This document shows positions 47,856 to 58,757 of a stretch of 64,000 bases of DNA, in pieces (position 1 is the stretch's first letter; every line of letters starts with the position of its first letter). Both the position numbers and the translations under genes were made by a program. Source of the DNA: Chloroflexota bacterium. GTDB lineage: Bacteria; Chloroflexota; Dehalococcoidia; Bin125. The notes beneath the pieces are model-generated. The model ran no database searches and was not told where the DNA came from. It worked only from the letters and a program-made list of their open reading frames with translations. The DNA is taken from assembly GCA_009838915.1 (NCBI GenBank), contig VXQT01000013.1:520194-584193 (forward strand), in the 5' to 3' direction.

Positions 47856-48884
47856 TCAGCCGCGCCTCCAGCGCCCGCGGCGCGCCTGGTGCTCTTTCTC
47901 GCGTGCTTCGCTGCGCTTGGTCATCTGGCGCACGCGGTCATAGAGCCGCGGACTGACCAACAGCGAAGCCATCTGCGACGTGGCGTCGGGAATTTCAGGG
48001 GATGCGCCCGCATCGGGATCCATGTCGTCGCCGCCCAGGAATCGGGCGTGATTGATCTGGGCGGTCGAGAACTCGCGGAAGACATCCTCTTCCGTCTCGT
48101 CGAGCAGATTGCGAACCCGGTCAAGCTCGAGCACGAGACGATCGATCCAGTGTTTGACCTGCTCGCGATTGGTGACCGCGATTTCGGTGGTCAGGCTGGG
48201 ATCGCCGGAGTTGTAGGCGGTCATGGCGCGGAAGGTGTCGCCGGCGGCGCGACCGAAGTCGGGCCAGCCGTCGGAACCGCGCAGCATCGTGAACAGGGCG
48301 GACGAGACGACGAGCGGCAGGTGCGAGACCCCGGCCATCACGTAGTCGTGCTCGGCCGCATCGAGAAAGTGCGGTGTCGCGCCGAGCTCGCGGACCATGC
48401 CCAGCACCGACTTGACACTTGTCTCGGAAGCGGTCGGAGAGGGGCTGAGGAACCAGCGCTTACCGCGGAACAGGTCGGCGCTGGCGTTGTCGATTCCGAA
48501 CGCCGAGGCGTCACCCGCCATCGGGTGTCCACCAACGAAGGACACGCCGTTGGGCAAGTGCTGCTGCGCCCAAGTGCCGATCTGGACTTTGGAGGCGGCA
48601 GTGTCGGTCACGACTGCGCCTCGTCCAAGGTGCGGGGCGATCTCCTCCATCAGCTCGGATGTCGCCGCCGGCGGCGTCGCGAGCACGACCAGTCCTGCGC
48701 CCTCGACGGCTTCGCGCGGAGATGAACAGACGCGGTCAACGGCGTCCTGCTTGCCGGCCGCGTTGCGCGCCGGGCGCCAGTCGTCGAAGCCGACAACCTC
48801 GGTGTCCTTCAGTTTGGCCGCGAGCAGCCCCATGCCGATCGAACCGCCGATGTAGCCCAATCCAAGTATCGCAATCCGAGCCAC
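47856..48884 (-). CDS. tyrA: Prephenate dehydrogenase
   Basis: 342 aa. The NAD-binding N-terminus is GLGYIGGSIGMGLL. TDTAASKVQI, GGHPMAGD and MAGVSHLPLVVSSAL (catalytic His) identify the TyrA family. The C-terminus is a basic tail (KRSEAREKEHQARRGRWRRG) without an ACT domain. It oxidises prephenate to 4-hydroxyphenylpyruvate for tyrosine. It is the first gene of the supra-operon and divergent from the transglycosylase gene. Confidence 0.94.
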   Translation of the reverse strand: MARIAILGLGYIGGSIGMGLLAAKLKDTEVVGFDDWRPARNAAGKQDAVDRVCSSPREAVEGAGLVVLATPPAATSELMEEIAPHLGRGAVVTDTAASKVQIGTWAQQHLPNGVSFVGGHPMAGDASAFGIDNASADLFRGKRWFLSPSPTASETSVKSVLGMVRELGATPHFLDAAEHDYVMAGVSHLPLVVSSALFTMLRGSDGWPDFGRAAGDTFRAMTAYNSGDPSLTTEIAVTNREQVKHWIDRLVLELDRVRNLLDETEEDVFREFSTAQINHARFLGGDDMDPDAGASPEIPDATSQMASLLVSPRLYDRVRQMTKRSEAREKEHQARRGRWRRG

Positions 48885-50404: not shown

Positions 50405-50481
50405 CCCCCCGTAGCTCAACCGGACAGAGCGACGGACTTCTAATCCGTAGGCTGGAGGTTCGAGTCCTCCCGGGGGGACCA
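50405..50481 (+). tRNA. tRNA-Arg (anticodon TCT)
   Basis: The cloverleaf is complete: acceptor CCCCCCG/CGGGGGG, D arm GCTC/GAGC, anticodon stem ACGGA/TCCGT with loop CTTCTAA (anticodon at 50439-50441), T arm GGAGG-TTCGAGT-CCTCC, discriminator A and encoded CCA. It reads AGA and AGG codons. Two degraded copies of its 3' half lie at 52.2 and 52.75 kb, marking it as an integration site. Confidence 0.95.
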
Positions 50482-50718: not shown

Positions 50719-52158
50719 ATGCCTCCAGCATCCGTATCTGCGCGTCCACGGTCGCGCGCACGCAAGCCTCGCCACCAGACCACTTGCGCCGACTGCGGCG
50801 CTTCGACCAGCGTGCCGTTCCGTCCCCGCGCCGACCGGCCGGTGTACTGCAGCCCGTGCTACGCGGGTCGACGCGGCAGCGCCCGCCTGAACCTTCCTTC
50901 GGAAGAGCCGCGGGGCAGGCGCACCGAAGTCAAGCCGGCTGCTCCCAGTCAACCCAACGACTCGGCCAACGGCCGGGCTGCGGATCGTCCGGCCGCGACC
51001 TTCTCCGACATGGGCCTGAGCCGCTCGACGATGACGGCGCTCTCGGCGATGGACATCTCCGAACCTACGCCGATTCAGCAAGAGACGATTCCCCTGTTGC
51101 TGGCCGGTCGCGACGTGATCGGCCAGGCGCGGACTGGTTCCGGCAAGACCCTGGCGTTCACGATTCCGCTGCTTGAAGGCTGCGATCCTGCGGTGTGCGA
51201 GGTACAGGCGCTGGTGCTCACGCCGACGCGGGAACTGGCGATCCAGGTGGGCGAAGTGACGGACGCGGCGGCGAAGGGCCGGGGATTGCAGACCACGCTG
51301 CTCTACGGCGGCCGCTCGGCGCGACCCGAGTATGCGGCCCTCAGGCGCGGACCGCAGATCGTGATCGGCACCCCGGGTCGCACGCTGGACCACCTTCGCC
51401 AGGGGACGCTCAACCTACGGTCGGTCCGATTCCTGGTCCTGGATGAGGCGGATGAGATGCTGGATCGCGGCTTTGCCCGCGATGTGGAGGCGATCCTCGG
51501 CTACACGCCATCCGAACGTCAGACCGCGCTGTTCTCGGCGACGCTGCCCGACTGGGTGGCGACGACCGCCGCCAAGCACCTGCGCCAGCCCGCCACGGTG
51601 GAGGTCGACGCCGACTTGCAGACGCTGCCCAGCGTGACGCATCTCGTCTATTCGATCCGACGCGACCACAAGATCGGCGCGCTGCGCTCGCTGCTGGACC
51701 AGCGCAACGGCGAGGCGGTGATCGTCTTTGGCAAGACCAAGCACGGGGTCAAGAAGCTGGCCCGCCAGCTCGATGGGTTCGGCTATCCGGTGGGCGCGCT
51801 GCAGGGCAATCTGAGTCAGAACGCACGGGAACGCGTGATGCGCGACTTTCGCTCGGGCGACACGCCGATCCTGGTCGCCACCAATGTCGCGGCGCGCGGC
51901 CTCGATATCGACGGCGTGGGACAGGTGATCAACTACGACCTGCCCGATTCTCCCCAGCTGTTCACGCACCGGGTCGGACGGACCGGCCGAATGGGCCGCG
52001 ACGGCGAAGCGATTACCTTCGTCACGTCGGAGGAAGAGTCCAAGTGGCGGGAGATCGACCGCAGCCTGGGCGTCCGGTTCATCCGCCAACCGTGGAACGA
52101 CGATCCCGAACTGCAGCAACCGACCCCGCGCCGCTCGCGTGTGAGGCGAGTGCGCTAG
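50719..52158 (+). CDS. DEAD-box RNA helicase with N-terminal zinc ribbon
   Basis: 479 aa. A basic N-terminus carries a four-Cys ribbon (C23, C26, C44, C47), then a linker and the RecA-like domains: AQARTGSGKT, PTRELAIQ, VLDEADEML, SATLP, and HRVGRTGRMGR. It ends in a basic tail. It is likely to unwind structured RNA or assist ribosome assembly. It lies between tRNA-Arg and the first tRNA remnant, and the 237 bp before it hold no recognisable gene. Composition matches the chromosome, so it need not be foreign. Confidence 0.93.
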   Translation: MPPASVSARPRSRARKPRHQTTCADCGASTSVPFRPRADRPVYCSPCYAGRRGSARLNLPSEEPRGRRTEVKPAAPSQPNDSANGRAADRPAATFSDMGLSRSTMTALSAMDISEPTPIQQETIPLLLAGRDVIGQARTGSGKTLAFTIPLLEGCDPAVCEVQALVLTPTRELAIQVGEVTDAAAKGRGLQTTLLYGGRSARPEYAALRRGPQIVIGTPGRTLDHLRQGTLNLRSVRFLVLDEADEMLDRGFARDVEAILGYTPSERQTALFSATLPDWVATTAAKHLRQPATVEVDADLQTLPSVTHLVYSIRRDHKIGALRSLLDQRNGEAVIVFGKTKHGVKKLARQLDGFGYPVGALQGNLSQNARERVMRDFRSGDTPILVATNVAARGLDIDGVGQVINYDLPDSPQLFTHRVGRTGRMGRDGEAITFVTSEEESKWREIDRSLGVRFIRQPWNDDPELQQPTPRRSRVRRVR

Positions 52159-52169
52159 CGCCTGGGACA

Positions 52170-52213
52170 CCCCCGCAGAGCTTCAGGACCCGAAGGTTCG
52201 AGACCTCCCGGGG
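52170..52213 (+). pseudogene. Decayed tRNA-Arg copy (remnant 1)
   Basis: CCCCCG...CGGGG acceptor ends survive, and GGTTCGAGACCTCCCGGGG matches the T arm and acceptor 3' strand of tRNA-Arg(TCT) with one change. The anticodon arm is missing. It looks like a leftover attachment-site duplication, 12 bp after the helicase stop. Confidence 0.6.
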
Positions 52214-52248
52214 ACTACTCCACCATGTCCTGATTCCTTTGCCTCTCT

Positions 52249-52374: not shown

Positions 52375-52740
52375 ATGGCACTGACGCGCGACTTCAAGGA
52401 GACAGTGCGGGCCCGGGCGCAAGGCGACCCGGCGTTTCGTCGGGCGCTGCTGCACGAGGGCGTCGAGTGCCTGCTGAGCGGCGACCTGGACACGGGCAAG
52501 CTCGTACTGCGCGACTACATCAACGCGACGCTGGGCTTCGAGGAACTAGGGTCGCGCACGGCCAGATCGCCCAAGAGCTTGATGCGGATGTTTGGCCCTA
52601 CGGGCAATCCTCAGGCGCGCAACCTGTTCCAGGTGATCGCCTGCCTGCAGGATCACGAGGGCGTCCACCTGGAGGTCACGGAGCGCAGCTACGCCCCGAC
52701 GTCGGGATTGACGGCGCAGTTGGCTGAGTCGGAGGGTTAG
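52375..52740 (+). CDS. Addiction-module antidote protein (HigA-like HTH, TIGR02684 type)
   Basis: 121 aa with AGGAG before the ATG. ALTRDFKETVRARAQGDPAFRRALL and VLRDYINATLGFEELG are hallmark segments of this family, followed by a Cro/CI-type helix-turn-helix (SPKSLMRMFGPTGNPQARNLF). It should neutralise its toxin and repress the operon at the upstream palindrome. The cognate toxin is truncated, so this is an orphan antitoxin, which may act as an anti-addiction factor or decay. Confidence 0.88.
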   Translation: MALTRDFKETVRARAQGDPAFRRALLHEGVECLLSGDLDTGKLVLRDYINATLGFEELGSRTARSPKSLMRMFGPTGNPQARNLFQVIACLQDHEGVHLEVTERSYAPTSGLTAQLAESEG

Positions 52741-52751
52741 GGGGAGATTGG

Positions 52752-52783
52752 ACGGTAGGCTGAGGGTTCCGGTCCTCCCTGGG
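52752..52783 (+). pseudogene. Decayed tRNA-Arg 3'-half copy (remnant 2)
   Basis: GTAGGCTG, then GGTTC, then GTCCTCCC-x-GGG follow the order of the tRNA-Arg(TCT) variable loop, T arm and acceptor strand with a few substitutions. It lies 11 bp after the antitoxin stop and 20 bp before the DUF262 gene, so it reads as a second attachment-site scar. Confidence 0.55.
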
Positions 52784-52803
52784 CAGCAGCAAGAGGAGAG
52801 AAA

Positions 52804-54546
52804 ATGGCATTCCAGACTCCAATCACTCTGCGGACTGCGCTCGACAAGATTCAGGCACGCGAGTACGTTCTGCCAGCAATCCAACGAGGCTTCGTTTGGG
52901 ATACAGACCAAATCGCAGCCTTGTTCGATAGTCTGATGAAGGGATACCCAATAAACTCCCTCTTGTTTTGGAACGTCACGGCAGAACACTCTGAGAAGTA
53001 TGTCTGGTACGACTTCATCAGGGACTATCACCAGCGCAAGGCCCCCAGGTCGCTTCCTCTTCCTCCGTCGTCGACGCCTTACACTGCGATCCTCGACGGC
53101 CAACAACGTCTCACTGCCCTGAACATTGGACTCAGAGGAAGCCACGCGGCCAAGCTTCCCAGACGACGAAAAAACAATCCAGCAGCGTACCCAATCAAGT
53201 ATTTGTATCTGAATCTTCTTCAACCAGCCGGGGAAAATGACTTTGATGTCGAGTACGATTTCCGTTTCTTGTCCGAAACCGAAGCTAAGCGTCTTAACGA
53301 GTCTCCCGATGCCCATTGGTTCAAGGTACGGACCGTCAATGGCTTGGATGACGCCGTTGCCATTTTCAATCACGTCCACCGCCTGGGCCTCGCCGACCAT
53401 GGCCGCGCATTTCCAACCCTTGTCAGACTACATCAGGTGACGCAACTTGATCCGATCATTAACTTCTTCGAAGAGAATGATCAAGACTTAGATCGCGTCC
53501 TCAACATCTTCATCCGCGTCAATAGCGGAGGCACAGTGCTCTCCTACTCGGATTTGCTGTTGAGTATCGCCACTGCTCAGTGGACTGAACGTGACGCTCG
53601 CGAGACAGTCCAATCGCTTGTCGAGGACCTCAACGACGTAGGACACGGCTTCTCTTTCTCAAAGGACATTGTGCTCAAGGCGGGCCTAATGCTGACGGAT
53701 ATCAGCTCGATCGAGTTCCGTGTCACCAACTTCACTCGTGAGAACATGCTCACCCTTGAAGCTGCGTGGGACTCGATCGAGACATCGTTGCGGCTGGCAG
53801 CACAACTACTGGCGGATTTCGGATTCTCTGAACGGACACTGAGGGCTAACAGCGTCATTCTGCCAATCGCTTACTACCTGCACAGGCGCTCTCTTACAGA
53901 GTCGTTCCGTTCCGGCCCTTCGTTTCGCGCCGATAGGGAGAAGGTCCGCCTATGGACCGTTCGATCACTTGTCAAGTCTGGCATCTGGGGCAGCGGACTC
54001 GACACCCTGTTAGCCGCACTCCGAGCCACGATTCGAGAACACGGTTCGGACGGTTTTCCTGCAGACCGGCTCGAACGCGCAATGGCTGCTCGAGGCAAGT
54101 CTCTGCAGTTCGACGAAGAAGAGATAGATGCTCTAGCCGATTTGGAGTACGGTTCTGCGAGCGTGTTCTCTCTTCTTGCGCTGCTTAGCCCGAACATCGA
54201 TCTTAGACACGAGTTTCACGTTGATCACATATTCCCCCGTAAGTTGTTGTCCACCAAAGGCCTGGCCAAGCAAGGGTTATCCTCCGAACAGATCGAGGAG
54301 TTTCGGGACCGGATGAACGGGCTTGGCAACCTTCAGTTTCTTGAGGGAACCCAGAATGCCCAGAAGTCCGGCTTGCTTCCTATGGATTGGGCGAAGAGCC
54401 AGTGGCCGGACACCACTGCACGAGATGCATGGCTTGCGGGGCATGACATGGTTGACCTGCCAGAAGAGTTGCAGGGCTTTATCGACTTCTTTGACGCCCG
54501 TCGTGATCGCCTCAGGGCTAAGATTCGCGAAGTGCTGGTGAGCTGA
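52804..54546 (+). CDS. DUF262/HNH (GmrSD-like) putative defence protein
   Basis: 580 aa, AGGAG ribosome-binding site. The N-terminal DUF262 ParB-like domain shows LPAIQRGFVWDTDQI, the nucleotide-binding DGQQR at 98-102 and FIRVNSGGTVLSYSDL. The C-terminal HNH-type region has H469-x-x-H472-x-x-H475-I-F-P and a later GNLQFLEGTQNAQKS. This order resembles GmrS plus a DUF1524-like end of type IV (modified-DNA) restriction enzymes, here in one chain. GC is clearly lower than in flanking genes, and it sits beside a tRNA scar, so recent acquisition is likely. Confidence 0.8.
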   Translation: MAFQTPITLRTALDKIQAREYVLPAIQRGFVWDTDQIAALFDSLMKGYPINSLLFWNVTAEHSEKYVWYDFIRDYHQRKAPRSLPLPPSSTPYTAILDGQQRLTALNIGLRGSHAAKLPRRRKNNPAAYPIKYLYLNLLQPAGENDFDVEYDFRFLSETEAKRLNESPDAHWFKVRTVNGLDDAVAIFNHVHRLGLADHGRAFPTLVRLHQVTQLDPIINFFEENDQDLDRVLNIFIRVNSGGTVLSYSDLLLSIATAQWTERDARETVQSLVEDLNDVGHGFSFSKDIVLKAGLMLTDISSIEFRVTNFTRENMLTLEAAWDSIETSLRLAAQLLADFGFSERTLRANSVILPIAYYLHRRSLTESFRSGPSFRADREKVRLWTVRSLVKSGIWGSGLDTLLAALRATIREHGSDGFPADRLERAMAARGKSLQFDEEEIDALADLEYGSASVFSLLALLSPNIDLRHEFHVDHIFPRKLLSTKGLAKQGLSSEQIEEFRDRMNGLGNLQFLEGTQNAQKSGLLPMDWAKSQWPDTTARDAWLAGHDMVDLPEELQGFIDFFDARRDRLRAKIREVLVS

Positions 54547-54678: not shown

Positions 54679-54731
54679 AGTGCCCCCCTCTGCCTTCGGC
54701 ATCTCCCCCCGCTTCGCGGGGGGAGAGGGGA
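54679..54731 (+). repeat. Dispersed two-hairpin palindromic repeat, copy B
   Basis: TGCC-TTC-GGCA is followed by CTCCCCCCGC-TTC-GCGGGGGGAG and GGGG. It ends 9 bp from the sodN stop codon, on the transcript's downstream side. Confidence 0.9.
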
Positions 54732-54740
54732 AACGCAGGT

Positions 54741-55145
54741 CTACTGCGCGTAGATGCCGGCTCCGGGGCCTTCGGCGGTGGCCCAGAACTTGTCGGAGAT
54801 CTGGTCGATCAGGTCGATGAGTTCCTGGCCCTTGGCGACATCGTTGGTCTTCTTGGCTTCGCCGGCGACCTTCGTGGCGTTCCACATGAGTTCGTGGATC
54901 GAGGCGTCGGCCTCGAGGTGGTGGGGCTTGAAAAAGTCGGTCCAGAGCACCCAGAGGTGGTGCTTGACTTCCTCGGCTCGCTGTTCCTTCACGATCGTGC
55001 AGCGGGCCTTGAAGTCGTGGTCGTCGGAGTCGTTGTACTTCTCCATCGACTTGAGGACGGACATGGCTTCGATCTTGGCCTGGGCGGGGTCGTAGACGCC
55101 GCAGGGCAGGTCGCAGTGGGCTGAGGCGGTCTGGAACAAGGACAT
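54741..55145 (-). CDS. sodN: Nickel superoxide dismutase
   Basis: 134 aa from the ATG at 55145. After a 9-residue leader (MSLFQTASA) comes the Ni-hook HCDLPCGVYDP, where H10, C11 and C15 bind nickel after cleavage. The rest is a helical bundle (KHHLWVLWTDFFKPHH...). It detoxifies superoxide in the cytosol. The maturation peptidase gene sodX, usually adjacent, is not present; the next upstream gene is a Cu/Zn-SOD. The track extension upstream includes repeat C and is not coding. Confidence 0.95.
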   Translation of the reverse strand: MSLFQTASAHCDLPCGVYDPAQAKIEAMSVLKSMEKYNDSDDHDFKARCTIVKEQRAEEVKHHLWVLWTDFFKPHHLEADASIHELMWNATKVAGEAKKTNDVAKGQELIDLIDQISDKFWATAEGPGAGIYAQ

Positions 55146-55245
55146 TCGGTGCTCCCTTTTGGGCTGGTTCGCTGGTTGGATGCAGTTTGAGGCTATCGAG
55201 TGGGTAGGTGTTGGGCAACTGAGGCCGGTGATGAGGCGTGCGGGG

Positions 55246-55323
55246 GAGCCCCCCCTCTGCCCCCCGCCTTCGCGGGGGCAGGCTTTCGGCATCTCCCCCC
55301 GCTTGCGCGGGGGGAGAGGGGAA
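55246..55323 (+). repeat. Dispersed two-hairpin palindromic repeat, copy C, with nested insertion
   Basis: This copy has the CTCCCCCCGC/GCGGGGGGAG stem, but its small stem is interrupted by an extra hairpin (TGCCCCC...CGGGGGCA). It ends 5 bp from the sodC stop codon, in the sodC-sodN gap. Nothing else is visible in that gap. Confidence 0.85.
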
Positions 55324-58703: not shown

Positions 58704-58757
58704 GGGGGAGACCCCCCTCTGCCTTCGGCATCTCCCCCCGCTGCGCGGGGGGAGAAA
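58704..58757 (+). repeat. Dispersed two-hairpin palindromic repeat, copy E
   Basis: TGCC-TTC-GGCA is followed by CTCCCCCCGC-TGC-GCGGGGGGAG. It lies between the thiolase stop and the DUF35 start, so within a presumed operon. Confidence 0.9.

Follow-up and report, generated by a model that had tools for sequence, protein, structure and literature searches.

A probable solitary BrxU-type restriction enzyme encoded in a variable interval between tRNA-Arg and NiSOD genes

BrxU, a type IV restriction enzyme encoded on the Escherichia fergusonii plasmid pEFER, carries its DUF262 and DUF1524 domains on one chain of 587 aa (Picton et al. 2021, PMC8565348), and in the presence of ATP it cuts DNA containing 5-methylcytosine (5mC), 5-hydroxymethylcytosine (5hmC) or glucosylated bases (PMC12409352). 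Mutation of S42, Q101, R102, D474 or H475 abolishes both phage resistance and DNA cutting, whereas R38A and N485A variants behave as the wild type, and N519A and E528A variants still cut DNA in vitro (PMC8565348). Both the pEFER gene and a Roseomonas homologue are located within or beside BREX loci. The same two domains are present in SspE, which depends on phosphorothioate modification genes, and a similar plan with similar motifs is found in GmrSD enzymes such as Eco94GmrSD. BrxU and single-chain GmrSD share just 13% identity (PMC8565348).

The gene described here (Table 1) resides in a 64-kb window, by which we mean the whole stretch of DNA that was analysed. Its frame begins with ATG, is free of internal stops, and is preceded by a purine-rich ribosome-binding site (AAGAGGAGAG) a few bases upstream. 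The initial annotation had described a single-chain DUF262-HNH protein of 580 aa with a DGQQR motif and a C-terminal HNH-like motif, and all of these elements are present. GmrSD_N (DUF262, E 2e-28) and GmrSD_C (DUF1524, E 1.6e-6) of Pfam match the same chain, both exceeding their curated cut-offs, and the HNH motif forms the end of the stretch HEFHVDHIFP, whose last residue is aa 478. The resemblance to GmrSD enzymes that had been proposed is also borne out in domain plan and motifs, and it can now be sharpened, since the protein belongs with BrxU, a subfamily of the GmrSD type IV enzymes. In a search of the PDB, BrxU of pEFER (7p9k/7p9m, E 1e-170, residues 3-578 of 580) was matched convincingly and no other solved structure was, and alignment with this biochemically studied homologue over the full length gives 48.5% identity in 575 columns.

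Phylogenetic and model-based comparisons point in the same direction. A phylogeny had been suggested as a check on the initial annotation, and a maximum-likelihood tree places the protein in the BrxU clade with support of 100/99. Within this clade it branches off early (87/66), next to a group of nine (98/95) that comprises BrxU, homologues on plasmids and further members of the same class of bacteria. The protein also matches PADLOC model PDLC04151 (HEC-05) over its full length at 692 bits, and BrxU matches the same model at 774 bits; the name HEC-05 merely labels candidates, without further content. NCBIfam offered no model for it. Although SspE shares the DUF262 and DUF1524 domains, the best SspE model reached only 18.8 bits. 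An AlphaFold2 model computed from a two-row alignment (the window protein and one homologue from a Clostridia MAG) had a pLDDT of 37 and a pTM of 0.25, too low for use, and the BrxU fold with its interlocked dimer is predicted for the protein from homology. We place the probability at roughly 0.85 that the protein is a solitary BrxU, that is, a one-chain, modification-dependent type IV restriction enzyme, with its activity predicted by homology. As enzymes go, it is an ordinary addition to a known and already characterised family.

Table 1. Features of the brxU-like gene and of the interval that holds it, in window coordinates.
Feature	Position	Strand	Basis
tRNA-Arg (anticodon TCT), 5' anchor of the hotspot	50405..50481	+	ARAGORN; synteny in congeners
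DEAD-box RNA helicase gene, hotspot cargo, followed by a tRNA tail	50719..52158	+	ORF list and genus comparison
Scar 1, copy of the tRNA-Arg 3' end between helicase and toxin-antitoxin remnant	52192..52217	+	Local alignment, core match
Remnant of Gp49/HigB-like toxin, reduced by deletion to its first ~34 residues	52257..52364	+	tblastn/blastn against G011 toxin-antitoxin pair
HigA-like antitoxin, 121 aa, intact frame	52375..52740	+	Position after toxin
Scar 2, copy of the tRNA-Arg 3' end, stopping 15 bases short of brxU	about 52755..52788	+	Local alignment; G004/G011 copies
brxU-like gene, predicted single-chain DUF262-DUF1524 type IV restriction enzyme	52804..54546	+	Pfam, PADLOC, PDB match, alignment, tree
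DGQQR codons (aa 98-102), NTP-binding/hydrolysis motif	53095..53109	+	Sequence, BrxU alignment, PMC8565348
HVDHIFP codons (aa 472-478), HNH nuclease motif (DHIYP in BrxU)	54217..54237	+	Sequence, BrxU alignment, PMC8565348
Nickel superoxide dismutase (NiSOD) gene, 3' anchor of the hotspot	54741..55292	-	Pfam; in 15/15 genus genomes searched

The alignment with BrxU also bears on whether the enzyme is likely to function. Residues S42, D98, Q100, Q101, R102, H472, D474 and H475 are all kept, and the only mutationally tested positions that differ are R38 (A), N485 (K), N519 (A) and E528 (D). At two of these, 38 and 519, the window protein naturally carries the alanine found in BrxU mutants that still cut. 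Because every residue shown to be essential is kept and those that differ are dispensable for cutting, the expected chemistry should be intact. The likely function would be ATP-driven cleavage of phage DNA bearing modified cytosines, and the nuclease and NTPase activities, the substrate, the dimer cycle and the anti-phage effect are all predicted from the sequence by comparison with BrxU. By this homology, the resting enzyme would be a dimer that splits when NTP binds to the DUF262 domain at DGQQR; hydrolysis of the NTP and then re-association would follow, and the C-terminal HNH domain would cut incoming DNA carrying 5-methyl, 5-hydroxymethyl or glucosylated cytosines. Another BrxU relative (L086:9525-11285 in G387) has DGQQI for DGQQR and G for S42, both of which are essential positions in BrxU, and is possibly a variant that operates without the NTPase cycle.

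Cytosine-modified DNA (5mC, 5hmC or glucosylated) is our best guess for the substrate, and the host genome (G000) adds a complication. It encodes an intact m5C methyltransferase (G000:C8:75981-76994, L089) that has the PCQ and ENV motifs and whose products are a possible self-target if the enzyme cuts 5mC. Either the methylated sites occur too rarely or are unsuitable for cleavage, or the enzyme spares plain 5mC in vivo. Methyltransferases of this kind are also encoded in two of five other BrxU-bearing genomes that were checked. Escherichia coli DH5alpha is a dcm+ strain. BrxU was nevertheless carried in it (PMC8565348). The methyltransferase gene of G000 adjoins an ORF resembling a GHKL-type ATPase, and the two may be part of a modification or defence cluster.

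The presence of this methyltransferase is one reason to consider an enzyme of the same type that responds to a different cue, such as phosphorothioate (as for SspE), another modification, or some other feature of invading DNA. Sequence identity of 48% leaves scope for altered specificity, and how BrxU recognises modification is not understood structurally (PMC12409352). However, the position of the protein inside the BrxU clade and the large gap between its scores for the SspE and BrxU family models make such a switch unlikely, and we retain modified cytosine as the preferred substrate. Given this degree of divergence, the substitutions at R38, N485, N519 and E528 can be used to probe the determinants of BrxU substrate range.

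Unlike its pEFER counterpart, the window gene is chromosomal, sits behind a tRNA-Arg tail, adjoins a NiSOD gene and is outside any BREX operon. We took being encoded with brxC, pglX, pglZ and brxL as the mark of BREX membership, and the window gene lacks this company. When the BREX proteins of pEFER and of the Roseomonas BREX-3 locus were compared with the 64-kb window, the matches were confined to BrxU and to the DEAD-box gene, the latter a weak one through its helicase domain. No PglZ above the family cut-off was found in the host genome, which is 95% complete, and the same BREX proteins were absent near all nine other BrxU homologues inspected (eight of them from its own class, the ninth from a Clostridia MAG). 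These results argue against the idea that the gene is one part of a larger system and is nonfunctional alone, in the form of a BREX island, as the settings of the pEFER and Roseomonas genes might suggest. The larger system might alternatively be an operon regulated by the HigA-like antitoxin, whose gene is on the same strand 63 bases upstream. Protection by BrxU was assayed in E. coli with this protein expressed on its own, and point mutation abolishes it (PMC8565348). We consider dependence on a larger system of either kind improbable, and in this class brxU seems to occur as a solitary gene. The window gene extends BrxU beyond BREX and beyond plasmids as a lone chromosomal gene.

The initial annotation had further noted a lower-GC, foreign composition, and a comparison made within the 64-kb window agrees with this. 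The GC content of the gene is 0.541, which is the lowest of the 1743-base stretches across the window (mean 0.650, sd 0.023), and its GC3 of 0.618 compares with 0.76-0.90 in neighbouring genes. The distribution of BrxU is also patchy. Rather than the wide vertical conservation that had been named as counting against a defence gene, we found BrxU in only two of the 15 genus genomes searched, namely the host and G001, or one of 14 congeners. The G001 protein is 47% identical to that of the window, is encoded at another locus, and belongs to another subclade, where its partner is a protein from a different family within the class (100/100). A search of 393 genomes from the class gave a match at E <= 1e-60 in 10. 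From its foreign composition, patchy distribution and position in a tRNA hotspot, the window gene was probably acquired horizontally. Among plasmids, 414 records have matches, none with at least 60% identity. BrxU relatives with 32-36% identity also occur in four records filed as phage (OR846597.1 50648-52252, PQ492289.1 10457-12109, MT835483.1 75719-77233 and MT835506.1 41135-42928), which are unannotated and may be prophage or plasmid sequence.

The tRNA scar mentioned in the initial annotation proved to be two decayed copies of the tRNA-Arg 3' end upstream of the gene. Their local alignment scores of 35 and 33 exceed the maximum of 28 obtained in 300 randomised intervals. Scar 1 contains a 20-base core at 52194 with one mismatch, for which 0.03 matches are expected at <=3 mismatches, and G004 and G011 have better preserved equivalents of scar 2 in the corresponding position. 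No third tail was found downstream of brxU (best score 18, within the null), so that no tail marks the right end of the insertion. The HigA-like antitoxin between the scars is without a Pfam or PADLOC match. The toxin before it has been shortened by an internal deletion; the full toxin-antitoxin pair is present in G011 (L049), and in G005 (L054) there are matches to the start of the same toxin and to the antitoxin over its whole length.

The truncated toxin immediately upstream and the decay of both tails indicate that some of the cassette series is old, and one might suppose that brxU is likewise an inactive or decaying gene left behind in the hotspot. We regard this as very unlikely for a gene with a full-length open frame, a good ribosome-binding site, all essential residues and a composition that is still foreign. 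A functional solitary BrxU is the better reading of the same features.

Comparison across the genus reveals that the hotspot setting proposed at the outset is general. The order of the gene at 48659, tRNA-Arg(TCT), variable content and NiSOD is conserved, and of 12 congeners examined, 11 have the tRNA next to the upstream gene seen in the window. G007 has an empty interval, in which only about 110 bases separate the tRNA from the NiSOD stop codon. Elsewhere the cargo varies. The DEAD-box helicase is present in six of 15 genomes (G000, G002, G004, G009, G011 and G008, in the last on a separate contig), and other cargo includes toxin-antitoxin genes and a DUF7002 gene (G005). Cassettes are followed by copies of the tRNA 3' end. 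In the window, scar 1 comes after the helicase and scar 2 after the antitoxin. In G004 the helicase is followed by a tRNA-end copy with one mismatch, and G001 has a second tRNA-Arg, called as a gene by ARAGORN, 0.9 kb further on. Five congeners carry helicase copies with 79-86% identity, and the other nine have either a paralogue with 43-48% identity or nothing above threshold.

DUF262 genes recur in this slot. One subfamily, 53-71% identical among its members, occupies it in G004, G012 and G013 and aligns with part of the window protein at 22-30% identity. A third type lies on the opposite strand in G009 (PADLOC Orf5, 563 bits). The genes of the G004/G012/G013 subfamily begin about 20-35 bases after the tRNA tail, which is intact in G012 (about 25 bases) and decayed in G004 and G013. 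Two DUF262 subfamilies thus start about 15-35 bases past a tail, so that the tRNA promoter could drive their transcription. DUF262 genes occupy five of 13 intervals, and with only 0-7 DUF262 matches per genome in the genus this exceeds position-blind placement in an informal comparison. The count is tempered in that defence genes are expected in hotspots anyway and that the three related captures may be a single event.

We tentatively suggest that the tRNA-Arg(TCT)-NiSOD interval is a slot to which genes are added serially at the tRNA 3' end, each leaving a tail, and that three unrelated DUF262 subfamilies were captured separately. The interval might then represent a small cassette system, free of an integrase or served by a recombinase in trans, that swaps type IV-like defence genes, although we would sooner expect this full scheme to need revision than to stand as given. 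The cassette pattern is nevertheless more interesting than the enzyme itself. Intervals that are empty, hold one of three DUF262 types or carry other cargo provide a natural series for the exchange of type IV restriction genes at a tRNA.

A candidate for the mobility gene of these tRNA sites is a large serine recombinase that occurs in two species of the genus (L052:16226-17779 in G001 and L059:7302-8867 in G010, 97.8% identical over 462 aa). The identity at the G001 copy stops inside the 3' end of tRNA-Ala(GGC), about 7 kb from the G001 brxU gene, and the G010 copy is about 2.5 kb from NiSOD. Finally, a dispersed repeat with a GC-rich hairpin, CCTCTGCCTTCGGCATCTCCCC, is present at 54687-54708 and 58716-58737, with related copies near 55282 and 56168. 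The same repeat is found between genes of related genomes, and no copies are expected by chance.
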